Virus record (IMG/VR): IMGVR_UViG_3300033145_000399
Location: 1 to 42,866 of that record
Length of the DNA stretch: 42,866 nucleotides
Strand: one strand, 5' to 3'
Source: a virus
In this document: one piece after another, positions 19,885 to 40,771 of the stretch
How the letters are laid out: every line of letters starts with the position of its first letter
Numbering within the stretch: the stretch's first letter is position 1
Program-made: the position numbers and the translations under genes
Notes under the pieces: generated by a model
Databases searched by the model: none
Told to the model about the DNA's origin: nothing
What the model saw: only the letters and a program-made list of their open reading frames with translations

Positions 19885-19898
19885 CGAATAGATTGGGT

Positions 19899-19916
19899 GG
19901 ACAAGTTCGCTTGTCC
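19899..19916 (+). promoter_or_regulatory. UUCG-tetraloop hairpin upstream of the nucleotidyltransferase
   Basis: GGACAAG and CTTGTCC flank TTCG, a perfect 7-bp stem with the very stable UUCG loop. It lies 39 bases before the next ATG. No T-run follows, so it is more likely an RNA stability or pausing element than a terminator. Confidence 0.5.
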
Positions 19917-19955
19917 TTCCAGCTTTGTTCACTAATCAATAGAAAGGAGTTTACT

Positions 19956-20807
19956 ATGCGTGGAATTATTCTCGCTGGTGGTAAAGGAACTAGGTTAGCA
20001 CCAATGACCTATGCTACCAACAAACATCTATTACCTGTTGGTGATAGACCAATGATTTTCTACCCCATTGCCACTCTTAAAAAGGCAGGGATCAAGGAGA
20101 TTATGATCATTACCGGTGGGGAGCATCTTGAACAGATCGCTAGGGTTATTAGCGAGACAAGAAAGAGCACTGATGTCATGCTTGAGAGCCACAGGGCTTT
20201 GCTCAGAGGACTTGAGTTCACATTCAGAGTTCAGGATGAAGCTGGGGGTATTGCAGAAGCTTTAAGCTTATGTGAGGGCTTTGCAATGCACGATAATATC
20301 ACTGTAGTGTTAGGTGATAATATCATCCTCGGAGATTTGGACACATCATTCTATACCGGTGGGGCTAAGATTTTCCTAAAGGATGTTTCTGACCCAACTC
20401 GGTTCGGTGTTGTTCAGTTCCATAAGAGTGAAGAAGAGGTTACTATTCCCACTGAAGTTCTGGATGCTGAATCCGGAGAAGATGCTGAGGAGACTAACAC
20501 CTTCCTTAAACGCAAACTCACGATTGAGAAAGTGATTGAAAAGCCTACCGCTCAAGAGGTTGAAACCATTGTCTTTAAGACTGGTATCAGACCTCCTGCT
20601 GTGATCGGTTTATATATCTATGATGCCAGAGTTTTTGACATCATAAGGACTATCAAACGATCCGATAGAGGTGAGTTAGAAATCACTGATGTGAATAATG
20701 CGTACCTTGAGATGAGTGAGTTGAATCATTCCTTCGTTCCAGGAGATTGGTCTGATGCCGGTACTCTGGAAAGTCTTGCAAGAGCAAACGAGCTTGTAAG
20801 CAACTAA
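19956..20807 (+). CDS. RmlA-like sugar-1-phosphate nucleotidyltransferase, 283 aa
   Basis: ATG 19956 has AAAGGAG five bases upstream. The nucleotide-binding signature ILAGGKGTRLAPMTYATNKHLLPVG opens the protein (given here across its G-x-GTRL and K-LLPVG parts), followed by VVLGDNIILGD with the metal-binding Asp, EKP, and GLYIYD. This is the glucose-1-phosphate thymidylyltransferase (RmlA/RfbA) fold and near its normal length. It makes an NDP-sugar (probably dTDP-glucose) in the cytoplasm. It is the last gene of the rightward arm, and its product could feed the glycosyltransferase cassette of the late arm. Confidence 0.85.
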   Translation: MRGIILAGGKGTRLAPMTYATNKHLLPVGDRPMIFYPIATLKKAGIKEIMIITGGEHLEQIARVISETRKSTDVMLESHRALLRGLEFTFRVQDEAGGIAEALSLCEGFAMHDNITVVLGDNIILGDLDTSFYTGGAKIFLKDVSDPTRFGVVQFHKSEEEVTIPTEVLDAESGEDAEETNTFLKRKLTIEKVIEKPTAQEVETIVFKTGIRPPAVIGLYIYDARVFDIIRTIKRSDRGELEITDVNNAYLEMSELNHSFVPGDWSDAGTLESLARANELVSN

Positions 20808-20904: not shown

Positions 20905-21219
20905 TTAGTTAAGTTCCTTCTTCAATCCATAAAGATATTCAACGATACTATTAACCATGCTACTACCTCTACCGATAGCGATACCGGTTACTATGTAGTC
21001 CAGGTACACAGGGATGCTAAATACGCTACCATCAACAACCTGAGACACTTCTAAGGTTAGATAATTAACGATTTGCAGGTTACTAGCCCAAGCGACAAAC
21101 AATCCCAAAAGGAGTGCTATCCACCAAGACTTACCATTGATCCATTTCCAAAGAGGTTTCAAGTATTCTATCAACCCCTCAATGAACCAAGCCCAAAATA
21201 ATGCCAAAACTATAATCAT
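20905..21219 (-). CDS. Holin candidate, 104 aa
   Basis: Three hydrophobic segments (residues about 2-20, 31-50 and 71-85) and a charged end (YGLKKELN) fit a small phage holin. Its start overlaps the amidase stop by four bases (ATGA), the common endolysin-holin pairing. Holins form membrane lesions that let the endolysin reach the wall. No specific holin family was recognised. Confidence 0.6.
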   Translation of the reverse strand: MIIVLALFWAWFIEGLIEYLKPLWKWINGKSWWIALLLGLFVAWASNLQIVNYLTLEVSQVVDGSVFSIPVYLDYIVTGIAIGRGSSMVNSIVEYLYGLKKELN

Positions 21220-21842
21220 AATTTCTTTGTTAGTTTATATAACTCTTCTGCTTTTTTTGTTATTTGTTTTGCTAATGTCAGTATCTCTTCTGCTGGCTCT
21301 TCTACTGGTCCAAAATACATTGCGATACCACCAGCAATTGCCCTACTGACTTCCTGTAGGTTGTTAAGCAGTCGGTCAACATCTGCTTTGTTTTTAATAA
21401 ATCCTACTTCAATTAATCCTGCTGGAATCTTACTGCTAATTTCTCTAAGCATATGCAGGTTCTTTGTTTTAACTCCACGCTGTCTGAATCCTAAATCTTT
21501 AACCATCTCCCAAATACCAGTAACAAGTTCTTTGTCTGCCTTTGGAGATTTGGGGTGATGAAATATCTCAATACCATTAGCGGTTGGTAGATAGAAGCTA
21601 TTAATATGGACAGATAGGGAAGCTATTGGTTTGGCTGCGTTTATACGATCAGTCCTAGTTTTTAGTGGTAGATAGATATCAGTAGTGCGTGTAAAGAACA
21701 CATCAAAACCATACCCTTTAAGATGCTCACCTATATTCAAAGCAAGCTGTAGAGCTAAATCTTTTTCTCTAAAACCATTTCCTACTGCTCCTGGATCAGT
21801 ACCCCCATGTCCAGGGTCTAATGCTATTAATCTTTTCGCCAT
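21216..21842 (-). CDS. N-acetylmuramoyl-L-alanine amidase (endolysin)
   Basis: An Amidase_3-type zinc amidase of 208 aa. LDPGHGG (His12), REKD (Glu26) and SLSVHINS (His79) are the metal ligands, and LIEVGFI (Glu145) is the catalytic Glu. Residues 185-208 are a short helical tail rather than a wall-binding domain. It cuts the peptide from the glycan strand of peptidoglycan during lysis. No signal peptide is present, so export through the adjacent holin is likely. Confidence 0.9.
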   Translation of the reverse strand: MAKRLIALDPGHGGTDPGAVGNGFREKDLALQLALNIGEHLKGYGFDVFFTRTTDIYLPLKTRTDRINAAKPIASLSVHINSFYLPTANGIEIFHHPKSPKADKELVTGIWEMVKDLGFRQRGVKTKNLHMLREISSKIPAGLIEVGFIKNKADVDRLLNNLQEVSRAIAGGIAMYFGPVEEPAEEILTLAKQITKKAEELYKLTKKL

Positions 21843-25454: not shown

Positions 25455-26285
25455 CTATTTAACATTAATTTTTATAATAGGTTTTGGAAACTTTTTAGCA
25501 TTTCTTTCTTTCAAAGATAACCGCAGATAATAGTCAGCAGTTTTTTCTAATATTTGAATTGGTGTTAGCCCATGCTCATTCTTAACTACTATAGTATCAA
25601 CAGTTGCCTTCTCATTTACTCTTCTAAGAAACCAAAGATGTGAGACATAAAACTTTATTAATTCATAAATTTTATCAGGGAATGAAATTGTACTAGAAGA
25701 AGCTGATCCAACAGCATAAGCTTTCAAATAATGAATACGCATCTGATATCCAGCAGTAGCTATTGGGCTCAAAAGTTTGACATAATTATCTACAGGACTA
25801 TATTCAAATTCTATTTGTTTCCAATTTTCACCACTATCAACTGAGAAATCAACTCCGTAAACTCTGGATAAATCACCAACACTAGAAACATCATAATATT
25901 CCTGGTTGGCTACAGTAACCATAGCAGATGTGTCTCTGCCTTCAGTATAAAAATCACTACGCAACCATCTGATAGCATCAGCAATTAAATCTATATACCT
26001 GGCATCACGCTCAATAGCGGATTGGTATGTGATGTTAATTATTGCTCCATCAGTAGGGGCAGTGGTCATCACAATAGCACCAGTATCATAATCAATAATA
26101 TAATCTGTTGTTTCTTCTTTTGTAGCTCCATCCAATTTGACAGTAGCGGTATTGTCTATCACCGGAACATCCGGCAAGTAGAATGTAGTTTTTGCTCCAT
26201 CACCTGTGTCCAGAACTTCACGATACATTTTGAAATCTCTAAAATGTGGTCGTAGGTGATCAGCAATAAATGTTGCGTAATTCAT
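25455..26285 (-). CDS. Virion protein, head-tail adaptor or tail tube candidate, 276 aa
   Basis: AAAGGAGA lies eight bases before the ATG. Residues 28-90 are a beta domain (TTFYLPDVPVIDNTATVKLDG) of the kind seen in baseplate and tail proteins; residues 95-130 and 205-265 are helical. The mix of a helical core with a beta insertion, size and position before the propeller protein resemble tail tube A/adaptor pairs of short-tailed phages. This is by architecture only. Confidence 0.5.
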   Translation of the reverse strand: MNYATFIADHLRPHFRDFKMYREVLDTGDGAKTTFYLPDVPVIDNTATVKLDGATKEETTDYIIDYDTGAIVMTTAPTDGAIINITYQSAIERDARYIDLIADAIRWLRSDFYTEGRDTSAMVTVANQEYYDVSSVGDLSRVYGVDFSVDSGENWKQIEFEYSPVDNYVKLLSPIATAGYQMRIHYLKAYAVGSASSSTISFPDKIYELIKFYVSHLWFLRRVNEKATVDTIVVKNEHGLTPIQILEKTADYYLRLSLKERNAKKFPKPIIKINVK

Positions 26286-26287
26286 CT

Positions 26288-29263
26288 CTATAATCTCCTT
26301 TTTAACATATTATTATCTTTCGCTTTAAGAGTGTAAACTCCTCTTCTGGAAAGTCTGGCTATATGCCTCTTATTGACAGCTACGAGAGCATACACCGCAC
26401 TGTCTCCTACTTCCATTGTATCGCCAATTGCTGTTTGTAGAAACTCTGACAGATCAAAAGCGAATTGATCAGCAATAACTACAGTGTCGGAGAAGGCTCT
26501 ATTAAATGTTCTCAGTGCTTCTAAAGCATCAGAGATTGTTTGAGTATCTTGAATATTAAAACTAAATACTTTAGCGACAACATCAGAGATTGTTTGGTTA
26601 TCAACGATCCCTTGAACGATAGATTTAATCAATCCATCAGTTATGCTTTCTGTATCTTGAGGTCTTTTGCCTGGCTTAAATGTGGTTGCATCAGATACTC
26701 CTAATTGATCTGCAAACTGCTTCCCTAACATATTAGAAATAGAATCTGCCACAGTCATGGCATCTGATTTAGATATACTTAAAATCTTCGCTATCTGTTC
26801 AACAATAGGCTCATTATCACTAAGGTTTCTAAGTGCATCAGGATTTAATACAGCATCCATTAAATCACTAATAGCTACCGGATCAAGCCTATTCACTCCA
26901 ATGTCTTTTGTTGCTAATTCCGAGATAGCTTCAGCCTCTTGCTTAGCTCCACTGACAGTAAGCTTGATTATTGCAGAAGCATTTATCTGATCAGACAAAG
27001 CTCTACCACGAACCAATAAGATTGAATCATAAATACCAACAGCATCTTCTTTGGTTATACCAGCTACTATAGATAATTGTTCTGTGATTGCACTACTATC
27101 ATCAAGTGCCTTGCCAATATTCCTAGAAATAACCTCTACCATAGATAGAACATCAGCTCGGTTTGCAGTTACTACTAATTTATTAATATCTCCTATAGAA
27201 ATTGTATCAGCCAATTGACGACCAAGCACAGTGGTAAGCCCATCAGCTATTGCCACAGCATCACTTCTTGGTATTGATAATTTATTAGCTATGGCATCAG
27301 CTATAGATTCTGAATCAATTAAAGCAGTAGTAATACTTTTAACAACACTATCAATTATTTGCTCACTTTCAAGTTTTGCTACACCGGCATTGAAATCTAA
27401 TGCTTCAGATATTCCCAATTCATCTAATAGTTCTCTACCGAGTTTAGCTAAAAGAATATCGTAAACAGCAACAGCATCTTGTTTTGGGATAGATGTAATA
27501 AGAGCTAATTGGTCAGCTATCCCCTCGCTTTCATTTAGTTCTCTGAAAGATTTGAATATTTTGAAAACTTGCTCAGCTATTGCTACAGATTCCTCTCTGT
27601 TTACTGATACTAACTTAGCCATTATTTTGTCAGAGATTCGTTGTACATCATCAGCAGAATGTGTTGCTGTTAAAATAGCTATTAACACATCATAGATAAT
27701 CACTGCATCAGCCTTAGATACGCTAACCTTATTAACTATTTCATCAATTATGCTTCCACTATCAGACAAGGATTTACTAATCCCATTTACAATACTTTCA
27801 ACAATAGCTTCGTAATCTTGGGATGATCTCCCAATCCCCATATCTCTACCTTTGCCAAGCCTTGCTTCCATCATGCTGAACAATTCTATTCGTTCCCTAG
27901 TGATCCTTTTGGCTTCTTCTTCAGTTATTGCCATTGCTTCTTGTTCGCCTTTACCAATAACCTTAGTCTCTTCTTCTACCATTCCCATAGAATCTGATAA
28001 TTGTCTTTCAGAAGTCCATATTTTTCTGCTCCAGGGGAATGATGCCTCCAGCACAGACAAAGGATCAGCGAAAGCTTTTGTTACTGCTTTAGGAGTTTTG
28101 GGTGGGTGTATTATGCGAACAACATCAGATAAAGCTTTAAAAAGATCAGATCCACTGGCTTCATATGTAACATAAAGAGAATATTTTTTGTCATCATGGA
28201 CAAATGATGCTGGGTCATCAAACTCAAATGGGAAACCAAAATCACCATAGGAGTGACCTTGATCTGTGTCACCTTCATCCCAAAACATAAATACCAATTG
28301 CTCCGCATATTCCAAAGCTACAATTGGAACATAATCTATAGCAGTTAATGTTGGCTCGGAATCAAATGGGAGAGCTATCCAAGCAGTCTCAGATGCACCT
28401 AATTCTGTAGCATCACACAGACCATCAGTTTCAATAGTAGAATCTGAATGTTTATACAAGGCAGCTAATACATCATATGGACTACCATCTAAGTTTTGTA
28501 AATAAACACTAATGCTTTCCCCATCACCAGCAGAACCAGCAAAAACAGAACCACTAGGAGAACCAGGAACATATTGCAATGATTCACCAACAGAAGTATA
28601 ACCAAAAGTAGGATCAACAAGCACTGGATATTTAGCATTATCTAACCAGGTTTGATCAACAGTGATTCTTAGTTTTCCATCTTCAATATTTAATTCTCCC
28701 CAAATCTCATCACCATTATCGTCAACAACCTTTGGGCGATATATATGACAAACCTTACCAGCTTTATATTGAACACCAGTAAAATTACCTGTTTTATCTG
28801 TGTATATTGCATATGAACCCACTGCATTTTCTGGTCTCATTATTCTTTTAGCCTCATCAATAGATACCTTTTTTAATTCAGCTATCTTGAGAACTGTAGG
28901 ATGGTCATCTGCAATCTCTGATTGATAAAAAGCATCTAAGCCTTTTAGATCAATATCAAATTCAAATATATTTGTCTTAGGCTTAACCAGTAGCTTTATC
29001 TCAATCTCAAACGCTTCTTGCTTTTCGTAGAAATGTACTTCGTAGTCATCCTTTTTGTATTTTATTTTATCCTCTTCATCAACTTCTGTAGCACTTGTTT
29101 CATCAAGATCTACAAATTTAACTGAGAAATTAGATAGCCCATTGTGTCTTTTAAAATCAATGTGAGGTTCAAAATTTTGAGCTTTTGTGTCACCAATATT
29201 TATCTCAATATCGTCATTGAGTACCTTGTATGAAGTTGTATTTTGGTTGTATTCTTTGCTCAT
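26288..29263 (-). CDS. Giant repeat fibre protein with beta N-terminal domain, 991 aa
   Basis: Residues 1-220 form a beta-rich domain ending in the motif DNAKYPVLVDPTFGY, known from phage and bacterial surface proteins. Residues 225-370 are a second, jelly-roll-like domain. From about residue 420 to 965 the protein is a string of about 25 copies of a 17-21-residue unit (consensus L-x-D-x-x-x-I-x-D-x-I-x-K-x-L, for example LIDSESIADAIANKLSIPR). The C-terminus is basic (RHIARLSRRGV). It lies in the tail cluster and overlaps the 619-aa repeat protein by one base (TAATG). A fibre or surface-spanning rod is likely (inference). Confidence 0.75.
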   Translation of the reverse strand: MSKEYNQNTTSYKVLNDDIEINIGDTKAQNFEPHIDFKRHNGLSNFSVKFVDLDETSATEVDEEDKIKYKKDDYEVHFYEKQEAFEIEIKLLVKPKTNIFEFDIDLKGLDAFYQSEIADDHPTVLKIAELKKVSIDEAKRIMRPENAVGSYAIYTDKTGNFTGVQYKAGKVCHIYRPKVVDDNGDEIWGELNIEDGKLRITVDQTWLDNAKYPVLVDPTFGYTSVGESLQYVPGSPSGSVFAGSAGDGESISVYLQNLDGSPYDVLAALYKHSDSTIETDGLCDATELGASETAWIALPFDSEPTLTAIDYVPIVALEYAEQLVFMFWDEGDTDQGHSYGDFGFPFEFDDPASFVHDDKKYSLYVTYEASGSDLFKALSDVVRIIHPPKTPKAVTKAFADPLSVLEASFPWSRKIWTSERQLSDSMGMVEEETKVIGKGEQEAMAITEEEAKRITRERIELFSMMEARLGKGRDMGIGRSSQDYEAIVESIVNGISKSLSDSGSIIDEIVNKVSVSKADAVIIYDVLIAILTATHSADDVQRISDKIMAKLVSVNREESVAIAEQVFKIFKSFRELNESEGIADQLALITSIPKQDAVAVYDILLAKLGRELLDELGISEALDFNAGVAKLESEQIIDSVVKSITTALIDSESIADAIANKLSIPRSDAVAIADGLTTVLGRQLADTISIGDINKLVVTANRADVLSMVEVISRNIGKALDDSSAITEQLSIVAGITKEDAVGIYDSILLVRGRALSDQINASAIIKLTVSGAKQEAEAISELATKDIGVNRLDPVAISDLMDAVLNPDALRNLSDNEPIVEQIAKILSISKSDAMTVADSISNMLGKQFADQLGVSDATTFKPGKRPQDTESITDGLIKSIVQGIVDNQTISDVVAKVFSFNIQDTQTISDALEALRTFNRAFSDTVVIADQFAFDLSEFLQTAIGDTMEVGDSAVYALVAVNKRHIARLSRRGVYTLKAKDNNMLKRRL
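26369..28006 (-). repeat. Coding repeat array, 991-aa fibre protein
   Basis: Translated units of 17 and 19-21 residues alternate, and four units make a higher-order period of about 72 residues (about 216 bp) that starts with (S/Q/E)DAVAI-D. The DNA copies are diverged, so the repeat is clear in protein but weak in DNA, which implies age rather than recent slippage. Boundaries are approximate. Confidence 0.75.
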
Positions 29264-31122
29264 TAACTTAATGTTTTAGGATTTTCCCTATCTAACTTTT
29301 TTATACCATGTCCTGTGAGTGCAGGGAATGGTACTCTTGATAATTGTTTTATTTCAACCCTGGTTAATCTCCCAAACCCAACTACGACTATGAAAACACT
29401 AGATAGTACATCACTTATCGTTGTTATGTCCCCTAAGATTTTTCCAACCTTAGATTTGTATTGTTCACTAACAGTAGAAATATCTCCAGTGATAACCTTA
29501 GAAACAAACATCTGCCTAACTTCATCTAAGCTCAGAGTATCACTAAATGATCTAGCCCACTCCAATATCATATTGATTGAATCAAGCACAATAACAGCTT
29601 CAGTCATATTCTTACCAATTAACACTGTTCTTGCATCAGCCACAGCCTCACTATCCTCTATATGAGAACCTACCAATAAAGATATTTGATCAGTAACAGA
29701 GGCTATATCAGATAGTGATCGGACATACCCTACTGCTGATTGTAATATATCAGAAATATTAGCAGAATCAGTAGTGACCTTACCGATAGATTTAGATAAA
29801 TTAGCTATTATAAGTTGCTGGTCAGTATCACCAAAACCAACACTCTTAATCAATAGATCAGAAATTGGTTCAGTATCATCTAATTCATACAGAGAAATAA
29901 ATACCGCTACGAGCTGATCAGATATTGAGAATGGTTCATTAATAACCTTGCCAACCTTTTTAGCTATATTGAGAATAATTGCTTCACCTTCTCCAAAGCC
30001 TTTTTTAACCCCCATAACACTTAAATCACTAACCGCTACTGTGTCGGAGAATAGTTTGTTTACTTCAATGCTAAAGGCATCAGCAACAACTAAGGCATCA
30101 CTTATACTAATCCCCATTGCCTTTGAAACACTTTCAGCGATAGCCTGGGTATCATTGATAGCCATCCTAATATATTTAACAAGATTATCAACCATCTCTT
30201 CTTGCTCACCTAAACTTTTACCAGCACCAAGAGATATTTGATCTAATATTTGTTCATCATCTAATAAAATTTTCCCTACAAGGCTTTGCAATAATTCAGC
30301 CAGTGCCATAGCATCATCTAAGTCTAAATCAATTTGATCTTGTATCAACCTGGCTACCAAGTCATCAGTAATTCCAACATTATCAAGAATAATTTTACCT
30401 ACATCTTTAGCCATATTAGCTACAATTTGCTCATTCTCTAAATCATGCACATCTATATTTAGATTGCGTTGATCAGAGATAGCCATAGCATCAGATAGAT
30501 TTCTACCAAGTGTAGCTGATAATGTGTCAGCTATTCCAACAGCATCATCTATCGGTTTCCCAATAGCTTTAGCGACTTGATCAGTTAAAGTTTCTGTATC
30601 GTTAAGTATTTTAGAAACCATCTTGGCTACAGTGGTTGTAATTAACTCGCTGTCACTGCCACCTTTTCCAATACCAAATATCGTGAAATCAGAAATGCTT
30701 TCATTATCTGCCAACATTCTACCAAGTTGTGTTTGAATACTATCAGCAATAGCCAGTGCATCAGACTTAGAGACATCAACACTTTTAGCTATTTGGTCAG
30801 TTAGTATTTGAGTATCAAGAAAAACTTTTCCAAGTATTTTAGTAATCTGTTCTTCAATCTCCCCTAACTCTTGATGACCCTGACCAATAGCTTTAGCGTG
30901 TGAATCAGAGACAGAAACAGAATCAGCAAGCTGACTAATAAAAACCACTACTTTTTGCAAATAATCAGAAATTGATTCTGATTCTTCTTTACTTACTCCA
31001 ATTGCCTTAGCAATCTCTTCAAGGATCGGTTCTACATCAGCAAGCTGTTTTGAATCGGAAACCAGAGCACTTCTAATGCTCGCATATTCCACACTAGCAT
31101 ATTCTGAATCTCCATAAAGCAT
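29263..31122 (-). CDS. Giant repeat fibre protein, 619 aa
   Basis: Almost all of the protein (about residues 22-580) is made of about 30 units of the same 17-21-residue motif as the next gene (for example LNDTETLTDQVAKAIGKPI and SDALAIADSIQTQLGRM). There is no separate N-terminal domain. The C-terminal 38 residues are basic (GRLTRVEIKQLSRV), resembling the end of the 991-aa protein. The two genes are adjacent paralogs in their repeat parts and are translationally coupled. No enzyme motif is seen. Confidence 0.75.
   Translation of the reverse strand: MLYGDSEYASVEYASIRSALVSDSKQLADVEPILEEIAKAIGVSKEESESISDYLQKVVVFISQLADSVSVSDSHAKAIGQGHQELGEIEEQITKILGKVFLDTQILTDQIAKSVDVSKSDALAIADSIQTQLGRMLADNESISDFTIFGIGKGGSDSELITTTVAKMVSKILNDTETLTDQVAKAIGKPIDDAVGIADTLSATLGRNLSDAMAISDQRNLNIDVHDLENEQIVANMAKDVGKIILDNVGITDDLVARLIQDQIDLDLDDAMALAELLQSLVGKILLDDEQILDQISLGAGKSLGEQEEMVDNLVKYIRMAINDTQAIAESVSKAMGISISDALVVADAFSIEVNKLFSDTVAVSDLSVMGVKKGFGEGEAIILNIAKKVGKVINEPFSISDQLVAVFISLYELDDTEPISDLLIKSVGFGDTDQQLIIANLSKSIGKVTTDSANISDILQSAVGYVRSLSDIASVTDQISLLVGSHIEDSEAVADARTVLIGKNMTEAVIVLDSINMILEWARSFSDTLSLDEVRQMFVSKVITGDISTVSEQYKSKVGKILGDITTISDVLSSVFIVVVGFGRLTRVEIKQLSRVPFPALTGHGIKKLDRENPKTLS
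29383..31059 (-). repeat. Coding repeat array, 619-aa fibre protein
   Basis: About 30 units with conserved Asp at two positions per unit. The four-unit (about 72-residue) super-repeat is recognisable at least four times, each starting with a (S/D)DA-(A/G/V)-(I/L/V)AD unit and followed by a unit with (L/F)-(A/S)D-xx-(S/A)(I/V)SD. Boundaries are approximate. Confidence 0.75.
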
Positions 31123-31123
31123 A

Positions 31124-33004
31124 CTAAGTATTATCTATTATTAATTGAGCACCAACACAAGTGAAAGTTGTACCTACACCAACCATCCCACCAAATTGAA
31201 TTTTATATTCTTTGTCAGTTAATAGTGTTATAGCTTCAGACCTAATTCTGTCTGTACTTGTAGTTGGGTTATTTATTTCTGAACCATCTACAGGCACACT
31301 ATCTGTAACATTATAAAGCCTAGCAAAACATGGGAAAACTGCATTTGAAGTTTTTAAATGTGCTTCTAAGAAAATTTCAGTTGTACCATATTTAGATGAA
31401 TCATGTTCTATCAACACTTCTCCATAATCAGCCCAATCAATCACTGCTTCTGTTTTTGCTTCAAGTATAACTGGATAATCTGTGAAAGGATCTGATGGAC
31501 CATCACCCTCTACAACCCTAAATTCATATGATGTGAAATTCTCGGCTGCTACTCCAAATTCAATAACCCACTCATCTTCAACTTGATAAGCTGGATTAAC
31601 CTCAACTGCTTCTGTGTCTGCATCCCCTCCAGTTGCTTCTACCCCTTCTCCAGCTACAAAAGTTCTACCATCTAAGCTTAATCTATTTGTGGTTGCATCT
31701 TGGTCTGCAAAGTTAGGAGAATTAACTAATACAACAACAAGTCCCAAAGTTGGCACATCAGTCCAACTTAGATCAAGTTTTTTTCTAAACTGTAATCTTC
31801 TAATTATAGTTTCTTCGGCTCCGCCTGTATCAGCTATGGCATATCTAATTCTAAAATTAGTTGATTTTGCTACATCTTCTATATTGGTATCTTCTGCTGC
31901 CAAAGGAGTTCCGGCATTAATCGCTCCATCATCATCATAAAACCTACCATGTATTTGATTGAATGTAGATGCAGGGGGCGTTTCTGTTGTTGCCTTTGCT
32001 ATTACAGAATAAACTTCTAATTCATCTCCGCCTGGTGATACAGTTACATCTACTACCCTAAATTCGTAGCTAGTATTATCTTCAGCAGCAGCATCAAAAA
32101 CCAAACACCATTCATCCTCAACTTTATAAGCATCAGTTAAATCAACCAATGTTGTACTTGCATCATCTTCTTTACCTTGTCCTGCCATGAAGGTATCACC
32201 ATCTGCTGTAAGCCTCTCAGTAGTGGCATCACCATCAGCAAATTCACTTGATGCAGCCATTTTTACTGGACCAGAGCCAATAACAGGTAGCCACCCTACC
32301 GACCCTTCTTTTCTCCATTCCAAAGACCTTGTAACATTTTTAGCTATATCTCCTATATTATGTATTCCATATCTAAGTCTAAAATTAACCTCTTTTTCTA
32401 CATCAATTATGTCTGTATCTTCGGCTGCTAAAGCAGTACCATCATTAATAGCATCATCATCATCAAAGAATCTAAAATGTTTTTGATCAAGCACAGCTCC
32501 ACCAATAGTTGCTTCTGCGTGTAAATATGTATCTAATGGAACACCTCCATCTACTATTCTGAAATAATACTTTTGACCATTAATAGCATCTGATGTGGCT
32601 TGTATACAATATTCCATTTCTGTATATTCACCATTTTTTATAGTTATGGTTGGGGCTTGAGGTATAAATTCAATCATAAACCCTGGCACAAAATTACCTG
32701 TGGCTGTCAGTTGTGCGGTTGTAATATCTAAATCATTAAAGTTAGGGGATGGTGATAATTGCCAATGTTCTCCCCCACCAGATACAGGTATAATCGGTAT
32801 CCAAACAACCTCATCTAGTGAATATTCAAGTCCTGCATTAAGCTTTATTTGACCACCACTTGTCCTGGCAACTTCTAATCGTAATCTGATGTTTTCTAAT
32901 TTAGATACTGCTGTTATCTCAGTATCTTCATTAGCCTTCCATGTAGCTCCTGATTCAGAGCCATCATCATTTCGCCACCTGTAATGATTTTGTATATTTG
33001 CCAT
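31124..33004 (-). CDS. Tail fibre protein with three tandem beta repeats, 626 aa
   Basis: Three copies of a domain of about 160 residues lie at about 7-169, 176-340 and 352-517. Each opens with H-x-R-(W/F)-x-(D)DD, continues with AxEDT-I-DV and (N)FRLRY, and ends in YEFRVVDG-type strands. A C-terminal beta domain (about 520-626) follows. Such repeats build the rod of fibre proteins. It sits directly upstream of the two giant repeat proteins, whose order is conserved along the operon. The leader is A-rich with no Shine-Dalgarno. Confidence 0.7.
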   Translation of the reverse strand: MANIQNHYRWRNDDGSESGATWKANEDTEITAVSKLENIRLRLEVARTSGGQIKLNAGLEYSLDEVVWIPIIPVSGGGEHWQLSPSPNFNDLDITTAQLTATGNFVPGFMIEFIPQAPTITIKNGEYTEMEYCIQATSDAINGQKYYFRIVDGGVPLDTYLHAEATIGGAVLDQKHFRFFDDDDAINDGTALAAEDTDIIDVEKEVNFRLRYGIHNIGDIAKNVTRSLEWRKEGSVGWLPVIGSGPVKMAASSEFADGDATTERLTADGDTFMAGQGKEDDASTTLVDLTDAYKVEDEWCLVFDAAAEDNTSYEFRVVDVTVSPGGDELEVYSVIAKATTETPPASTFNQIHGRFYDDDGAINAGTPLAAEDTNIEDVAKSTNFRIRYAIADTGGAEETIIRRLQFRKKLDLSWTDVPTLGLVVVLVNSPNFADQDATTNRLSLDGRTFVAGEGVEATGGDADTEAVEVNPAYQVEDEWVIEFGVAAENFTSYEFRVVEGDGPSDPFTDYPVILEAKTEAVIDWADYGEVLIEHDSSKYGTTEIFLEAHLKTSNAVFPCFARLYNVTDSVPVDGSEINNPTTSTDRIRSEAITLLTDKEYKIQFGGMVGVGTTFTCVGAQLIIDNT

Positions 33005-33013
33005 GTTTTTTTA

Positions 33014-34450
33014 TTATGGTGAATGAACCTCTAAAACAGATCCAAATGATATATAAGTTCTTACTTGACTACCACCCATCAAATTTACCCATATAGTGCC
33101 ATTGCTCGCATATAGTTTACCATCAGTGGATAATCTTCTAAGCCTACCAGGGAATACAGAAGCAGTCCCTAGATCATCTACAGTTTCTATAACAACATTT
33201 TGTAAATCTTGATTATTGCAATTGAGAGCTTCGCCTAATGGATTATCAACTTTAGCGTTCCAGTTAAGCCTATCTTCAATTTGTAAGTCTTTTCTTCTAT
33301 AATCTAAAGTTTGGACAACAGCAGGTGATCCTTCTTTAACTACTATTCTAAATAAATGCCACGCTACACCACTACTATTAAGAAAATCTGGGGCATCTGC
33401 AATAGGAGATATTCTTGCTGTGTTTTTACTTGGATATTCTGCTTGTCCAATAACCATATGGAAATTACCTGGTCCAGTTATAAATAGTTCGTCAGCTCTC
33501 CAATAGTCAGCAGTTAAATCAGCCAATGTTCCATCTCCATCATCATACTGAGAAGTGTTTATTTCTTGCTGAGCTGTTGTAGGTGTCCAACCACCAGAAC
33601 CATCTTTTCTCCAATATGTAAAAGTAATTGGGGTTGCTCCATTTAATGTAAACTTTTTATATAAATGGAATCCTACAAAATTAGATACATCAAGTTTCTT
33701 ATTATTGGCTCCATTAATCGTTGTTATTCCACCACTCAATACAATATTCCCATTTTCCCCTTGAGTTGCAGCAAATTGAGTTTGTTTTCTTATAATCTGC
33801 CCTGCTTCCCAGGGACTATTATGAATTTCAACAATATCACTATCGGCTGTGAATACTACACCTAACAAGACATATTGATCATGGTCTTGTTCTGTGGTTG
33901 ATATATCTAAAGCACCAGTTTTATCTATTGCTATAAAATTTATATCATCATCATTGGTAGCTTGATTAGAAAAAGCATCCCAGGTAACCCTTTTGCTAAG
34001 TCCATCTTGAACTACATAAGCAACACCGGAAGCTATATTAATAGTAAGCCCACCATTGTCAGTTATAGCACCGCCTGAAATTGCCCCTGTTGATTTTCTT
34101 TCACTACCCTCTTGGTTTAAATCATCAACTGCTTTTTTAGTCCAAGACATGATCATCTTGTAGGTAGCATCAGCAGTATTTTTAGTAGAAGCTCCAGTAG
34201 ATTCCTGATTTCTTACAATAGTTAAAGTATCAGTTGACCTTGCAGTCACCCTGACTATTTCTACATTTGGATCTTCTGTTGGGTTGGAATAATTAGTAGA
34301 ATCCCACCAGACAAGGTTAAATTCACCATCTGAAGATGGTTGTGGTAACTTAGCTCCATCACCAGTTTTTAAAACTATTGCGGTAGCTGAGGCATCATAT
34401 CCAATAGATACCTCAACTTTCGCAAAGTTTTTCGCTACATCCAAAGACAT
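33014..34450 (-). CDS. Tail fibre/tail protein, 478 aa
   Basis: The N-terminal 110 residues (FNLVWWDSTNY, VEIVRVTARSTDTLTIVRNQE) are the attachment-type domain found at the start of many phage tail fibres, where it links to the tail. The rest is beta-rich with Gly/Asn/Thr and aromatic residues; a repeat-like IPxAD pattern is not obvious. Likely binds to the tail and presents a receptor-binding region. AAAGGGGG precedes the ATG. Confidence 0.65.
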   Translation of the reverse strand: MSLDVAKNFAKVEVSIGYDASATAIVLKTGDGAKLPQPSSDGEFNLVWWDSTNYSNPTEDPNVEIVRVTARSTDTLTIVRNQESTGASTKNTADATYKMIMSWTKKAVDDLNQEGSERKSTGAISGGAITDNGGLTINIASGVAYVVQDGLSKRVTWDAFSNQATNDDDINFIAIDKTGALDISTTEQDHDQYVLLGVVFTADSDIVEIHNSPWEAGQIIRKQTQFAATQGENGNIVLSGGITTINGANNKKLDVSNFVGFHLYKKFTLNGATPITFTYWRKDGSGGWTPTTAQQEINTSQYDDGDGTLADLTADYWRADELFITGPGNFHMVIGQAEYPSKNTARISPIADAPDFLNSSGVAWHLFRIVVKEGSPAVVQTLDYRRKDLQIEDRLNWNAKVDNPLGEALNCNNQDLQNVVIETVDDLGTASVFPGRLRRLSTDGKLYASNGTIWVNLMGGSQVRTYISFGSVLEVHSP

Positions 34451-34466: not shown

Positions 34467-34946
34467 TTAAGAGTTCCCGAAGGTAACAGTCCAAGTGATT
34501 TCTAGTGAATCTAATGCACCTTTATTAATGACTGAGAAGTCATCATATAGGAACATATCACCAGAAGCAGAAGCACTAAATAAGCCAGCTTCAGTTAAAG
34601 CACCTGTACCAGTCCCAGCAGGGAAAGTACATACATAGATGACATCATTATCATCACCGCCAGCACCTTGAGCTGTGCTATCTAAGACAACACGAACTAC
34701 TGAAGTAGCAAGATCTGTATCAGTAGATGTTTGTCCAGATCCAGTACCTACACCCATGTGACTTGCTGAATCGTCTGATCCACCTGAAACAAGATCAGCA
34801 GTTAAGCGATCATATTCAACAGTGACAAGATTGTGTCGTTCAATCTCGCTTTTGACATTACCATCTTTGTCCTTGAGGACAGCCTTGAAATGCCCCACGA
34901 TTGGCTGTTTCGCTACAAACCCATCTCTAGGTTTTGAATTTTTCAT
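34467..34946 (-). CDS. Small tail-associated beta protein, 159 aa
   Basis: I chose ATG 34946 (MKNSKPRDGF) because AAAAAGG lies seven bases upstream; ATG 34952 and 35003 are alternatives. The product has a Gly/Ser/Thr-rich core and a closing block, ALTEAGLF then DSLEITWTVTFG, seen in small phage proteins near tail-fibre genes. It may be a capsid decoration or tail accessory protein. It lies between the glycosyltransferases and the fibre genes. Confidence 0.6.
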   Translation of the reverse strand: MKNSKPRDGFVAKQPIVGHFKAVLKDKDGNVKSEIERHNLVTVEYDRLTADLVSGGSDDSASHMGVGTGSGQTSTDTDLATSVVRVVLDSTAQGAGGDDNDVIYVCTFPAGTGTGALTEAGLFSASASGDMFLYDDFSVINKGALDSLEITWTVTFGNS

Positions 34947-34977
34947 TTCCATAGCCTTTTTGGTTATTAATATTAGA

Positions 34978-36051
34978 TTAAGAAGTTTTGAAAGCTTCAT
35001 CAATTTTATTATCCCATCTTTTTACCATTGTTAAAATAGAGTAGTTTTTTATAGCCCATTTCTTAGCCAGTAAACCTGATTGCTTCCTAAAGTTTTTATC
35101 AGCTATCAGCTTATCTAAGTTGTTAAACCAATCATTAGATGTCTTACAAATAAACAGTGGTAAATTTCTATATTGTGATACATCAGATGCTACTAATGGG
35201 ACACCCATCATTGCACATTCTAACCATTTTAAATTAGATTTACATCTGTTAAATTTAGTATCTGTTAATGGAGCCATCCCAATATCAAGCCCTATATTGG
35301 TTAGTCTTTGAACAAAATGAATCAAGCCCACCTGTGGCTCTACACGATAAGGAAAACCATTAAAGCCAGGGTCATACCCCATAAATACAAATTCAATTTT
35401 ATCACCATACTTTTTATATATCCTAACCAAAGCTTCTTCAACCTGGTTTTTTACTTCTTCACCAGCATAAATATGGAACCTCCCACCATACCAACCAATC
35501 TTAATTTTATCGCTTTTCTCTGATGGGTATAGTGACCATTCTTTAATATCAGTAGCATTTGGGATAGCCCAGGTGGGTCTGTTATACTCTTTACGATAAA
35601 CATTAGCCAATTCTTCAGTGGTAGTAATAACCCCATGAACATAAGGCAATAGCCTATTAACAAAATCCATGTTCATCTTATAAGAATCTATCTCTTCTTG
35701 ATCGCCAGTACCTTCCCATATATTAAGAAGATTATCGTCAGTCTGATAAAGCACAGTTTTGCCAAGCTCAAAGGCTCTTTCAGCCATTAACTCACAATCT
35801 GCAAACTTATATAGCCTGGAGAAGATAACTACATCAGCCCACTCAATAGGGGATAGATCAGCTTCATAGCTATCACAGTTTTCCCTGTCTGGTGTGCTTT
35901 TAAAATACCTAACATCAAGACCACGAATAATTCTAAATTCGTGACGAGAAAATTTAGCTGGTAGAAATGCCCTGTAGTAATCTACTGGACTTTGTTTTAC
36001 CGGTGTACTAATTACTAGAAATAATACCTTTAGACTTTGCAAGTTGTTCAT
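34978..36051 (-). CDS. GT4-type glycosyltransferase, 357 aa
   Basis: A GT-B fold protein. The N-terminal domain has YRAFLPAKFSRHEFRIIRG and the C-terminal domain has KIGWYGGR, DIGMAPLTDTKFNRCKSN and a GVPLVASDVSQY donor-binding segment. It is a close cousin of the next gene upstream (37153-36008), with which it overlaps by 44 bp, and the pair look like a duplication. Sugar and acceptor cannot be told from sequence. Confidence 0.8.
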   Translation of the reverse strand: MNNLQSLKVLFLVISTPVKQSPVDYYRAFLPAKFSRHEFRIIRGLDVRYFKSTPDRENCDSYEADLSPIEWADVVIFSRLYKFADCELMAERAFELGKTVLYQTDDNLLNIWEGTGDQEEIDSYKMNMDFVNRLLPYVHGVITTTEELANVYRKEYNRPTWAIPNATDIKEWSLYPSEKSDKIKIGWYGGRFHIYAGEEVKNQVEEALVRIYKKYGDKIEFVFMGYDPGFNGFPYRVEPQVGLIHFVQRLTNIGLDIGMAPLTDTKFNRCKSNLKWLECAMMGVPLVASDVSQYRNLPLFICKTSNDWFNNLDKLIADKNFRKQSGLLAKKWAIKNYSILTMVKRWDNKIDEAFKTS

Positions 36052-37153
36052 AAGCTTGATCCCATAATTTAGCGTTGTTTTTTATATTATAATTTTCAAT
36101 TACATCTTTTTTAGCAAGCAATCCTAAGTCAGTTCTTAACTGTGGATTCTCAATCAACTCCTTAATAGCTTTGTACCAATCGTTATATCTATTTTTAACC
36201 AATACAGATTTAGTATCATTATATGGAGCTACCTTAGAAGCAACAGTAGGCACACCAAGCAAGCCATATTCAAGATATTTAATATTTGACTTAGCTCTGT
36301 TAAATTCAGTATCACGAAGAGGAGCAAGACCAATATCAAAATCAAGTGTACTTAATCTCTTTGGGTACTTTATCAATGGAACTGGCTTGTAGAATTTAGC
36401 CTCTTTCATATCAAGTTTGTCTCTGGTTAGGTTGGTAAAGAAACAAATCTCAACCTTTTTCCCATACTCTTTTTTTATCTTCTTTAAAGCATCTAACAAT
36501 TCGGTATCAGAAAAATCATACATATGAGACCAAGACCCTTGCCAGCCTATTCTAACTACCCCTTCTTTCCCATCAGCAGTATGTTTCTTTAATGGAAAAT
36601 CCCAATCTTTTAAATCAACAGAGTTTGGCAATACAAACATCTCTGCACTAGCCTTCAGAGTGTCTCTGTACGCATCAGCAAGCTCTTTTGTGGTAACAAA
36701 CATCCCATCAACAAAAGGCAAAGCCCAATTAACAAACTGAATATTCTTAAACATCTTAGGCATATCGCTCATACTACGCTTTAATAGTTGTCCAGCTTTA
36801 TGAATATAGTCATCAGTTTCATAAACAACTATTTTACCCATACCCATAGCTATCTCTGCTGTACCACCAACTAAAGGCACTTGATCAAAATGCCTTTGGA
36901 ATACCACAATATCAGCCCATTTAATATCTGTAGTTATAATTTCTACACGCTCCACTCTTTGCTCACCAATGTTTTTAACAATATTGGTATCAATAGTATC
37001 AAGAACTCTCACATTATGTTTTGAATATCTAGTAGGTAAAATAGCACGATAAAGAGTACAGGCGTTAGCCATACGCTCATCAAACTTGCGTTCCTTTAGA
37101 TTAACACCGGTATTAACATAGATTAAAATATTTAGTTTTTTATTTAATGCCAT
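36008..37153 (-). CDS. GT4-type glycosyltransferase, 381 aa
   Basis: Shares YRAILPTRYSKH, VRIGWQGSWSH, DIGLAPLRDTEFNRAKSN and GVPTVASKVAPY with the following gene, showing a common GT-B template. The C-terminal acid-rich and Asn-rich region is consistent with a family-4 enzyme. It lies in the glycan cassette between a GT2 enzyme and its paralog. The leader (AAAAAACATG) lacks a Shine-Dalgarno. Confidence 0.8.
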   Translation of the reverse strand: MALNKKLNILIYVNTGVNLKERKFDERMANACTLYRAILPTRYSKHNVRVLDTIDTNIVKNIGEQRVERVEIITTDIKWADIVVFQRHFDQVPLVGGTAEIAMGMGKIVVYETDDYIHKAGQLLKRSMSDMPKMFKNIQFVNWALPFVDGMFVTTKELADAYRDTLKASAEMFVLPNSVDLKDWDFPLKKHTADGKEGVVRIGWQGSWSHMYDFSDTELLDALKKIKKEYGKKVEICFFTNLTRDKLDMKEAKFYKPVPLIKYPKRLSTLDFDIGLAPLRDTEFNRAKSNIKYLEYGLLGVPTVASKVAPYNDTKSVLVKNRYNDWYKAIKELIENPQLRTDLGLLAKKDVIENYNIKNNAKLWDQAYEQLAKSKGIISSN

Positions 37154-37874
37154 GTTTTTTATTAAATTTTTCTCTATTAATAGCTACCATCTTTTCTCTA
37201 AAACCTTTTACAGTTTCAAGTGTTTTATTTTTATAGTGATGGATAAGGACATTATTAGCTCTCATTGGTGGATGACCAGCCTTAGCCAATCTCAATTCAA
37301 AATCAGTATCTTCATACCATCCAGGAAAGAACTGTTCATCAAAATAACCTATTTGTTCAAAAGCTTCTTTGCTAACCATAAAGCAGAAACCAGCCAACCT
37401 GTGAGTTTCTACCTGTGGTATTACTTTATCCACTTCAGCAGCCTGTTTCTCCCAATCAGCAGGTAAGTCCTGTTCAGTGAATCTTGGGTAGATACACCAT
37501 AGATTAAACTTCTTAGCTAAGGCATAGAGCTTGTGAGCCCAACCATAACTTACTTTAATATCATTATTAATAATCAGAGCATATTTAGCACCCTTCTTAA
37601 ATGCTAACTTAGCTCCTTGATTCCAACTTGCGGCTACCCCAACATTCTCAGTATTACGAATATAACCACATAACATTGGCTCTTTTTCTAACTCTTCTCT
37701 GGTATCGTCAGTAGAAGCATTATCTACCACAACAACTTTTAGTAAATCAGAATGTTGTCTAATACTATTTAAAGTTTGTTTAGTCCACTTCCATTGGTTC
37801 ATAACCGGTATGACTACAACAACCTCAGAGAACAATCCTCTTTCCAGACCTATATTTCCCACGACTTTCTCCAT
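37140..37874 (-). CDS. GT2-type glycosyltransferase, 244 aa
   Basis: GT-A fold with VVVVIPVMNQW at the start, VVVVDNASTDDT, RNTENVGVAASWNQG and the NND metal motif (ALIINNDIKV). GWYEDTDFELRLAKAG provides the base region typical of rhamnosyl/glucosyl GT2 enzymes. It transfers a sugar from a nucleotide donor in the cytoplasm. Overlaps both neighbours, so part of one operon. Confidence 0.85.
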   Translation of the reverse strand: MEKVVGNIGLERGLFSEVVVVIPVMNQWKWTKQTLNSIRQHSDLLKVVVVDNASTDDTREELEKEPMLCGYIRNTENVGVAASWNQGAKLAFKKGAKYALIINNDIKVSYGWAHKLYALAKKFNLWCIYPRFTEQDLPADWEKQAAEVDKVIPQVETHRLAGFCFMVSKEAFEQIGYFDEQFFPGWYEDTDFELRLAKAGHPPMRANNVLIHHYKNKTLETVKGFREKMVAINREKFNKKHGIK

Positions 37875-38601
37875 CTAATCTATCTTTTAAAATATGACCA
37901 CACTGTCTATCTTCAAAACTTTTTATTGAATAATCTAAATATTTACCATACTCACCTAATGACATATGCCTACAAAGATCAGGGATAACATTACCAACAA
38001 AGTAACCCTTAGCCTTAATCAAGTGGGAGTAAACTGCATCTTCAGAAATCTCATTTGTCCAGATCTGCTCATCCCATCTAACCTTCTCGTTTTTAAACAA
38101 ACCAACTCTAACCACACAAGTACCACCTATATTCCACCAATGCCTATTAATCTTTTTACCATTTTCTTCATAAACCTCTAGTTTCGTATGCTCTTTATCT
38201 TTTGGTAGATGTTGCATCTGGTTCATAATGCCAACTTGTCCAAGCTCAGGCATTGCTTCTAACAATTCCATTGCTTCTAAGTCCCAGCCTTCTATATGAA
38301 CCATATCGTTGTCAGAACTATGCAAGAACAAAACATCCGGATGAGCTCTATCCCATCCTTGATTCCTAGCATACCCAGGGTACATATTTCTAGCATTTAG
38401 AATAACTTTGTCAATTCTCCCATCAAGATATTGCTGTATCAACCATTCCTGAGTTCCATCATCTGAATTATTATCAACAACAATTAACTCACCAGGAACT
38501 TGTCTTGTTTTTAATAATTCACTAACAGTAGCCTTTGTATAGTCTAAACGATTATAGGTTACTATTGTGCTGCTTATTATAGGCTTCAACTGCTTCTTCA
38601 T
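37825..38601 (-). CDS. GT2-type glycosyltransferase, 258 aa
   Basis: I chose ATG 38601 (MKKQLKPI); an earlier ATG at 38646 would overlap the upstream gene by 95 bp. TIVTYNRLDYT, LIVVDNNSDDGTQEW, the ARNQG motif and FLHSSDNDMV fit a GT-A family 2 enzyme. EISEDAVYSHLIKAKGY is the likely acceptor/base region. It overlaps the next gene by 50 bp. Confidence 0.8.
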   Translation of the reverse strand: MKKQLKPIISSTIVTYNRLDYTKATVSELLKTRQVPGELIVVDNNSDDGTQEWLIQQYLDGRIDKVILNARNMYPGYARNQGWDRAHPDVLFLHSSDNDMVHIEGWDLEAMELLEAMPELGQVGIMNQMQHLPKDKEHTKLEVYEENGKKINRHWWNIGGTCVVRVGLFKNEKVRWDEQIWTNEISEDAVYSHLIKAKGYFVGNVIPDLCRHMSLGEYGKYLDYSIKSFEDRQCGHILKDRLDGESRGKYRSGKRIVL

Positions 38602-39262
38602 AATCTTCTTTGGTATCAATTTCTTTAACAAACAATTCTCCAGCATCTACTACTTTCATTGGTATTTCCATGCGATCAAATACATCTTCGTAATAATTCT
38701 GGAAATCATCTTTAGTAAATGTCTCTGCGTACTTTTTTATATACTTTGGAGATATTTTATACAACCCTATAGCTTCACCAATTGGATTCTTAATTTTCTT
38801 ACCAATATTGATTATGCTATCACTGCCTTCTGCCTTAACTGCTACAGCCACCTCTTCATCACCAACCTTGCCTTTTTTAACAATGGCTGCATTTTGAGCA
38901 GGACACTCAACTAACATCTTTAATAGTTTTGGATCAAAAATCACATCACCATTAAGTATCAATAAATCTTCTTGGATCTCTGACCAATCACAAACAATCT
39001 GTACTGAGGCTGCGGTATTAGTAAATTTCCAAAAATGGTTAGCTACCATAGCATTAGCTTCACCAAAATCTTTCAAGATGTGACCAAAGCCATATCCCAT
39101 AACAATATAAACATCATAGCCAGAAATACCGACAGCTTTAAGAGCCTCCATTTGATGACGAATGATTGGTCTATCACCAATCTCTAGGTATGATTTAGGC
39201 TTATCACCATTAAGCCCCTTCATTCTTCTACCCATACCAGCAGCTAAAATTACAGCTTTCAT
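38552..39262 (-). CDS. LicC-like nucleotidyltransferase (CTP:phosphocholine-type), 236 aa
   Basis: ILAAGMGRRM, the KPKSYLEIGDRPI segment, LLILNGDVIFD and VKEIDTKEDYEEA form the pattern of small NTP transferases such as LicC/phosphocholine cytidylyltransferase and related sugar enzymes. Product could be CDP-choline or another CDP-alcohol, or an NDP-sugar. The glycerophosphotransferase-like gene nearby would use a CDP-alcohol donor, so the two could work together. Substrate remains uncertain. Confidence 0.7.
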   Translation of the reverse strand: MKAVILAAGMGRRMKGLNGDKPKSYLEIGDRPIIRHQMEALKAVGISGYDVYIVMGYGFGHILKDFGEANAMVANHFWKFTNTAASVQIVCDWSEIQEDLLILNGDVIFDPKLLKMLVECPAQNAAIVKKGKVGDEEVAVAVKAEGSDSIINIGKKIKNPIGEAIGLYKISPKYIKKYAETFTKDDFQNYYEDVFDRMEIPMKVVDAGELFVKEIDTKEDYEEAVEAYNKQHNSNL

Positions 39263-39264
39263 AA

Positions 39265-39834
39265 TTACTTCTTTAATAAAAATATAGTTTCATAACTTGC
39301 TTCTTGTCCTTCTGGGCTTACCCACATTCTTTCAATCGTGTCCATTACCTTAAACCCAGCAAGGCTAAATATTCTAGTCCATTGCAATATACTCATATCA
39401 GCTAAATGAGTAACCCAATTATCAACAAACTCACTACCTGGCTGTGGTACAACAATAACAACCCAACCACCACCTCTAACAGCCCTGTGGATATTGTACA
39501 TAACCAATAATGGGAAGGGTGAATGTTCTAATACATGACGAGCATAAACACCATCATACTCATGGTCAATTTCCATCAAGTGCATATCTTGACCATCCCC
39601 TATGTGCAAACCAAACTGCGTTACATCCATCCCTTTTTCTTTAAAGATTTCTCCACTACTCTCATCACCGCCAATCTCTAAAATTTTATTAACTTCTGGT
39701 GGGAACATACCAATGCTAACCTGTTTGCTTTCTATCTTTTTAGGATAATCCATATAGTGCATCCTCTTTTCGTGAGAAGCTACTATGCCAAGCAAATGCT
39801 CAATCGTTGCAATGTTATTTTTTGATAATTTCAT
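39265..39834 (-). CDS. SAM-dependent methyltransferase, 189 aa
   Basis: ILEIGGDESSGEIF is the SAM-binding loop, DGVYARHVLEHSPFP the acidic/HxxEH-type motif of class I methyltransferases, and LSLAGFK a late strand. It may O-methylate a sugar made by the cassette. It abuts the cytidylyltransferase gene (two bases) and overlaps the glycerophosphotransferase-like gene by 20 bp. Confidence 0.75.
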   Translation of the reverse strand: MKLSKNNIATIEHLLGIVASHEKRMHYMDYPKKIESKQVSIGMFPPEVNKILEIGGDESSGEIFKEKGMDVTQFGLHIGDGQDMHLMEIDHEYDGVYARHVLEHSPFPLLVMYNIHRAVRGGGWVVIVVPQPGSEFVDNWVTHLADMSILQWTRIFSLAGFKVMDTIERMWVSPEGQEASYETIFLLKK

Positions 39835-40771
39835 TTAATACTCTTATGCACCTTTCAATAGATAATCCTTGATAGTTCAATAATTCTGGGAACTTAACTG
39901 GATCACTTTTTAATATTTTAGGGACTAATTTTATAAACTCTTCATTTGATTTTGCTTGTGGAGCTTTCTTCTGATATTCCAATTCAACACACTGATCAAG
40001 CCTGTCATTGTTCTTGTATTGCGGATATTCGCCTTGTTTTGGATTTACGACACTTATTACCCTTTTACCCAATGCCATAGCTTCCAGGAGAACTGAAGAG
40101 ACATCAGTAACAACCAGATCAGCAGTACCCAAGAAAGGAGCGATATTGTCAGATTTTACCCTATATGGGTACATATCCTTCCATTCCTGCTTAGTAACAT
40201 CATGTAGCTTAACTATCACAGTAGTTTGATCGTTTTGGAGATTCATAATATCTTTACCAACAACCGGAATAGCAGATAGTTCATCATTGAAGGTTGGAGC
40301 GAACAAGATCATTGTCTTAGCCCAATTGTTATTTGGTTGATAGCCATCATTGAAAGCTTTATCTAATTTAGGCATACCGGTAACAATCAGCTTCTCTTCT
40401 GGAACATAAGTCATCATCTGTTCCTTGTGTAAGTCTGATGGAACAAAATGATAATCAACAGCATTTTCCCTTGCTACATAGTCAGGGCGATCAGTGAAGA
40501 AGATTCCCTTACTCCCAAGCCCATGACCTAGATTAATTAAAATGCCTTCTTTGTGAGGTGGTCTCACTCCACTATCAGCAATAAATACAACATCAGGATT
40601 ATCTACTTCCTGTATTTTTAATCCTTGCATAAAAGCACTTTCAGAAACATTCTGATTATTTGACCAAAAGCGACACTCGTGACCTTCAGCCTCTAAAGCG
40701 TGGTATAAATCTTCTAACATAGGAATATGTAGATTGTGACCTATCCAGAATTGTATCTTTAATTTATTCAT
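39815..40771 (-). CDS. CDP-glycerol glycerophosphotransferase-like (TagB/TagF family), 318 aa
   Basis: A GT-B fold protein with VFIADSGVRPPHKEG, INLGHGLGSKGI (close to the conserved GH-LG-KG of this family), an FAPTF block, and VVTDVSSVLLEAMALGKRVI as the donor site. TagB/TagF-type enzymes add glycerol-phosphate units to lipid or polymer acceptors. It is the first gene after the capsid terminator, with no Shine-Dalgarno; the T-run of the terminator lies about 18 bases upstream of its ATG. Confidence 0.8.
   Translation of the reverse strand: MNKLKIQFWIGHNLHIPMLEDLYHALEAEGHECRFWSNNQNVSESAFMQGLKIQEVDNPDVVFIADSGVRPPHKEGILINLGHGLGSKGIFFTDRPDYVARENAVDYHFVPSDLHKEQMMTYVPEEKLIVTGMPKLDKAFNDGYQPNNNWAKTMILFAPTFNDELSAIPVVGKDIMNLQNDQTTVIVKLHDVTKQEWKDMYPYRVKSDNIAPFLGTADLVVTDVSSVLLEAMALGKRVISVVNPKQGEYPQYKNNDRLDQCVELEYQKKAPQAKSNEEFIKLVPKILKSDPVKFPELLNYQGLSIERCIRVLNEIIKK

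Follow-up and report, generated by a model that had tools for sequence, protein, structure and literature searches.

An 18-residue tandem repeat in two predicted appendage proteins of an uncultured phage and in many other viral loci

The shafts of phage fibres govern how far away, and in what geometry, a host is recognised, and only a small number of shaft repeat types is known. A stretch of viral DNA of 42,866 nucleotides, which was analysed as a whole and is referred to here as the window (IMG/VR record IMGVR_UViG_3300033145_000399), carries on its minus strand two neighbouring genes for long repetitive proteins of 991 aa (A) and 619 aa (B). A first-pass annotation made from the sequence had reported both at this place, where they are indeed found, and had read them as giant fibre proteins. 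The locus raises three questions: what the repeating unit is, how widely it occurs, and what kind of structure such arrays would form.

The window begins and ends with an exact direct repeat of 114 bp (1-114 = 42753-42866), so it is most likely the complete, circularly assembled genome of an uncultured tailed phage, about 42.75 kb in size. A terminase large subunit, a major capsid protein and a weak portal match are recognisable. No match to tape-measure, sheath or tube proteins was obtained among the window proteins scanned, which suggests that the phage is a podovirus. The order of the minus-strand block is a phrog_5417-type protein, a tail fibre, a 626-aa protein, B, A, a 276-aa protein, an 81-aa protein, a 761-aa protein and an endolysin (Table 1). 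The 626-aa protein has a segment in common with the 478-aa tail-fibre protein (blastp E 5e-5 to 7e-5), and a segment of the 276-aa protein weakly resembles tail and virion structural proteins. The genes of A and B overlap by one base (TAATG). In both proteins an acidic array (pI 4.2-4.5) is followed by a short basic tail (pI 10-11), and the first ~375 residues of A are non-repetitive.

Table 1. Positions in the window of the two array proteins, their parts and the adjoining genes
Feature	Position	Strand	Basis
276-aa protein after A	25455..26285	-	phrog_11431 E 2e-6; PF03906 and DUF2460 below gathering score
Protein A, 991 aa: N-terminal module, linker, ~25 units, basic C-terminal tail	26288..29263	-	ORF and cyclic profile
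Repeat array of A, residues ~422-936	26455..28000	-	cyclic profile, autocorrelation
N-terminal module of A, residues 1-375	28138..29263	-	tblastn homology to UOF79905
Protein B, 619 aa: almost all ~30 repeat units, then basic C-terminal tail	29263..31122	-	ORF and cyclic profile
Repeat array of B, residues ~27-580	29383..31044	-	cyclic profile, composition
626-aa protein, directly upstream of B	31124..33004	-	ORF; internally similar segments by eye
478-aa tail-fibre protein	33014..34450	-	phrog_25788, phrog_8469, phrog_30299
phrog_5417-type protein	34467..35003	-	phrog_5417 E 8.9e-23

The unit is 18 residues long. Autocorrelation of A and B peaks at lags 18, 36, 54, 72, 90 and 108, and spacings of exactly 18 occur 19 times in A and 15 times in B, with occasional spacings of 20 and 22; the regularity described earlier is real, but the proposed alternation of 17-residue units with units of 19-21 residues is not. 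A cyclic 18-column profile, for which the autocorrelation is the independent test because the profile was refined on A and B themselves, scores 551 for A (residues 366-991) and 573 for B, compared with means of 48 and 49 and maxima of 70 and 65 in shuffled sequences, i.e., about eight times the best shuffled value. By cyclic alignment, near-complete units number ~25 in A and ~30 in B, in agreement with the earlier count of about 55, and the best stretch of the A array (residues 576-791) holds 12 units without a gap. A repeat HMM (rep54) matches B at E 2.7e-95 and A at E 5e-81, values that are partly circular, as window units were among its seeds.

The consensus reads L-S-D-S-x-x-I-S-D-x-[LI]-x-K-x-[VI]-G-K-x, or L-S-D-S-E-A-I-S-D-Q-L-A-K-V-I-G-K-S in its cyclic-profile form. 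Among the units of A and B, all counted cells have Asp or Glu at position 3 and about nine-tenths have it at position 9, and Gly occupies position 16 in about half. The repeat family is defined here, around phrog_12240, by at least three tandem units at a spacing of 18 (or 20) with D/E at position 3, a hydrophobic residue at position 7 and D/E at position 9 (D3-h7-D9); A and B both show this arrangement. The paired Asp residues had raised the possibility of calcium binding; neither the RTX nonapeptide GGxGxDxUx nor the EF-hand loop DxDxDG is present in the unit profile, Pfam gave no match to them either, and the unit fits no known calcium motif.

A higher order is superimposed on this period. 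Seven blocks of 72 residues from A and B align without gaps, and units of the same type score 23.3 (BLOSUM62) across the two proteins versus 9.2 for units of different types, a difference that none of 5000 permutations reached. The four-unit super-repeat of about 72 residues, which the first-pass annotation had seen in both proteins, thus stands. The two arrays also match one another (blastp E 2.8e-32), and this similarity, together with the common four-unit register, supports a shared ancestry of the arrays and the divergence by duplication that had been put forward. As the super-repeat is common to A and B, the four-unit order predates their duplication. Six relatives show no excess of lag 72 over lags 36 and 54, L012 being nearly uniform, and in L020 the super-repeat is one of 18+20; the 72-residue order therefore looks local to the lineage of the window.

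That the repeat is not a named domain, as had been suspected, is borne out by the curated libraries: Pfam and NCBIfam contain no match above their cut-offs, and repeat profiles found only chance-level matches in the PDB, ubiquitin among them. The best library match of A and B (E 2.8e-8 and 8.5e-5, respectively) is phrog_12240, a function-less phage family in PHROGs v4 whose profile was built independently of the window units and is matched weakly. The matches cover only part of its 387 columns, and it comes with neither a function nor a structure. The relatives L116 (E 2.3e-23), L020, L078 and L054 match it as well, yet L036, L029 and L030 carry the repeat without such a match. No paper on an 18-residue phage repeat was found in the open-access literature. 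Searches of isolated phages by tblastn with A, B and relatives returned almost nothing, although the repeat may escape such searches through divergence and the filtering of low-complexity sequence.

The repeat is nevertheless not peculiar to the window phage but widespread. A degenerate DNA pattern of three units (D-x3-h-x-D at a spacing of 18) occurs at 5 places in the window and at none in shuffles; in IMG/VR it picked out at least 120 stretches, about 22 of those listed being real arrays by profile. A second, stricter pattern that included K17 picked out at least 119 stretches, about 100 of those listed being real, and the conservation of D3, D9 and K17 among relatives is partly imposed by these search patterns. 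Besides the window and the Synechococcus phage BUCT-ZZ01, at least 114 viral loci, forming at least 75 clusters at 50% identity, have arrays at E < 1e-9. The first pattern was also run on cellular genome contigs, where none of 116 stretches is a real array (the L233 stretch is of low complexity, a run of LSVSDG). Among 690 genomes from two bacterial phyla (399 and 291), four matches were obtained at E 1e-8, three of them low-complexity or SD/DG-rich; the fourth, L359, is not classed so. Readable cellular matches were rejected as true arrays, being low-complexity or SD/DG-rich stretches. As far as tested, the repeat appears to be restricted to viruses.

The domains and genes that accompany the arrays point to the virion tail. 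In the T4-like BUCT-ZZ01, a protein encoded after a gp6-like baseplate gene (UTS51997) has C-terminal 18-residue units such as KPRSDTQGLSDDKDYYFT. Like those of the window, they carry paired Asp residues six positions apart, but the array comprises only about nine units and is fused behind a baseplate-wedge domain (phrog_17744, PF23786). In L046 the array stands behind a Gly-rich domain; the array gene of L054 is near a central tail fibre J and a baseplate wedge-tail fibre connector, and that of L030 is near a tail spike protein. A 1627-aa viral frame (L118:3-4883) has arrays on both sides of a GH10 domain (Pfam E 1e-72), an unusual cargo for a phage. Many relatives' arrays end in YFAEDYVG-like or LNxxxLN-like C-termini (e.g., L303, L269, L304, L307 and L273), possibly docking peptides for a neighbouring gene product. 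As this motif is not universal among relatives, it is not treated as defining the family; neither A nor B has it. The N-terminal module of A is homologous to UOF79905 of the podovirus isolate ctMEh928 (MW202647; tblastn 30% identity, E 7e-20), whose gene sits just before lysis genes. A search of UOF79905 and the rest of that 22.9-kb stretch (L002) found no 18-residue array.

The most constant neighbour is a phrog_5417-type gene. A partner profile made from six such proteins (that of the window and those of five array neighbours) was run over all loci. Among the matches listed, and counting array loci that are flanked on either side by 700 nt or more, the partner lies within 700 nt in 59 of 64, mostly within 20 nt; by cluster this is the case in 39 of 44, on the same strand in all 39 and downstream in 34. 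Among the matches listed for first-scan viral loci without a strong array, 2 of 102 have it (L032 and L056, both with weak arrays), and it was found in none of the 116 cellular loci. In the window it lies 3.3 kb from the array genes, behind the tail fibre and the 626-aa gene, and in L062 and L088 the distance is about 2 kb. The phrog_5417 family is similar to PF12571, the N-terminus of tail-collar fibres, and in relatives to the podophage GP4 fiber I gp80 (PF23140), in both cases below the gathering score; the neck fibre gp80 of A-1(L) (PMC10966104) is not the same protein as podophage GP4 gp80. In the isolated siphophages BcepGomr, phiAxp-1 and vB_Ade_ART the genes run in the order tape measure, 340-430-aa protein, phrog_5417-type protein and further tail or fibre genes. 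A short degenerate array lies near the C-terminus of the 340-430-aa protein in BcepGomr (E 6e-5), vB_Ade_ART (E 0.002) and phage Simon (E 2e-5); none was found in that of phiAxp-1.

As for the fold, side-chain volume alternates between large and small with a period of 2 across all 18 positions, in the window units and in relatives. In the window units, period 2.0 has a power of 102,756 and no other period exceeds 9,909; in 1103 units of relatives the corresponding values are 64,538 and 9,354. Period 2.0 thus leads by about seven- to ten-fold, and the odd-even column permutation gives p ~0.0005. Since 18 is an even number, the alternation carries on across unit borders, and parity is mostly kept among the spacings of relatives (116 of 16, 20, 22 or 24 versus 33 of 19, 21, 23 or 25). 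Judged at the level of sequence, this alternation with mostly even length changes is the mark of extended beta-strands.

AlphaFold2 monomer predictions (A 576-791 and B 65-208) yielded no stable fold, with pLDDT of 54.6 in a helical run and 41.7 in a run that used 28 mostly in-register homologous rows and gave no secondary structure. The helices of the first run would suit arrays in which 18 residues make five helix turns, as a coiled coil or an alpha-solenoid of short helices, as would the few prolines and a hydrophobic moment peaking near 80-100 degrees, an alpha-like power present in the hydrophobicity of the window units alone. We nevertheless regard helical arrays as improbable: the mean pLDDT was only 54.6, the helices were gone in the second run with its additional homologues, and period-2 size alternation dominates in both window and family. 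Moreover, helices are not favoured by the Gly that about half of the window units have at position 16, nor by the Ser/Thr-rich relatives, and length changes, being mostly +2, would break the helical phase.

The very low pLDDT of the second run and the acidic composition could also be taken to mean that the arrays are flexible, largely disordered linkers. This is very improbable, given that aliphatic residues (A, I, L, V) make up ~39% of the arrays and prolines 0.7-1.4%, and that a strict period and parity are kept across highly diverged sequences. The failed monomer prediction together with the large aliphatic content suggests an obligate oligomer.

One turn of a left-handed beta-helix has 18 residues, and period-2 alternation fits any beta-solenoid; single chains could therefore form stiff rods without trimerisation, each unit being one beta-helix turn, and the array behind a baseplate wedge domain in one phage is in keeping with this. 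We consider such solenoids unlikely. AlphaFold2 as a rule succeeds with single-chain solenoids, yet pLDDT stayed at 42-55 even with 28 rows; the charged D3, D9 and K17 share a strand face with the large hydrophobic residues, which is awkward for a closed monomeric core; and the PDB gave no profile match. Of the rod that the first-pass annotation had envisaged, the fibre role agrees with gene context and relatives' architectures, and the single-chain solenoid finds no support in the two AlphaFold2 runs (pLDDT 54.6 and 41.7).

Our preferred reading, which we hold to be likely, is that A and B are virion appendage proteins (fibre or tail-tip) with shafts of 18-residue beta-type tandem arrays, probably oligomeric. 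It draws on the strict period of the arrays and their beta-type alternation, on the phrog_5417-type genes beside arrays in most clusters, on the tail-fibre and phrog_5417-type genes just upstream in the window and on the arrays of relatives that are joined to, or lie near, baseplate, tail-fibre and tail-spike genes. Each unit would consist of beta-strands whose two faces differ, one bearing large residues (L, D, I, K) and the other small ones (S, A, T, G). Partner strands would be contributed by other chains, the most likely assembly being a homotrimer like those of other phage fibres. The arrays would act as a shaft or spacer that keeps receptor-binding or enzymatic domains off the tail, its length changing as whole units are added or lost. 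The N-terminal module of A, array-free in another podovirus, would be a separate domain, and B nearly pure shaft. Counting against the beta-shaft reading are the two low-confidence AlphaFold2 runs, one helical and one devoid of secondary structure, the alpha-like hydrophobicity power and the missing YFAEDYVG-type motif. There is also no need for a baseplate wedge protein of the BUCT-ZZ01 kind to form a trimer, and this speaks against a single trimeric state for all arrays.

The shafts of the adenovirus fibre and of the T4 short fibre and needle, which are triple beta-spirals and triple beta-helices, have repeats of ~15 or 8 residues with turn Gly/Pro. The window arrays are like them in that short tandem beta repeats would build long viral fibre shafts, but their unit differs in its 18 residues, its conserved D3, D9 and K17, and its lack of a PDB profile match. 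The repeat is probably a common, previously undescribed building block of phage fibre shafts: it is common in environmental phages, unseen by curated domain libraries and linked genetically to a single small partner. More tentatively, it may belong to an undescribed modular fibre system in many podo-, sipho- and myoviruses, with a beta-type shaft whose 18-residue unit is unlike any solved and a dedicated phrog_5417-type partner that docks the shaft to a tail-fibre tip. A profile of the repeat would annotate many function-less proteins, and a single solved structure would give the fold of every one of them.

Some other features of the genome deserve mention. Between the capsid gene and the fibre block (34978-40771) lie several glycosyltransferases (two matching phrog_7162 and one phrog_2456) together with a methyltransferase and a protein of phrog_3980; glycosylation of the virion or of host glycans is a possible role of this region. 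L004, a relative via the capsid protein, has sugar-enzyme-like and methyltransferase-like frames at the same place, by eye. The function-less phrog_3980 is matched by two window proteins, one per strand (19893-20807 and 38552-39262; E 8e-36 and 2e-10). Two lysis-type genes, for a transglycosylase-like protein and the endolysin, are located on opposite strands at 12006-12749 and 21216-21842.
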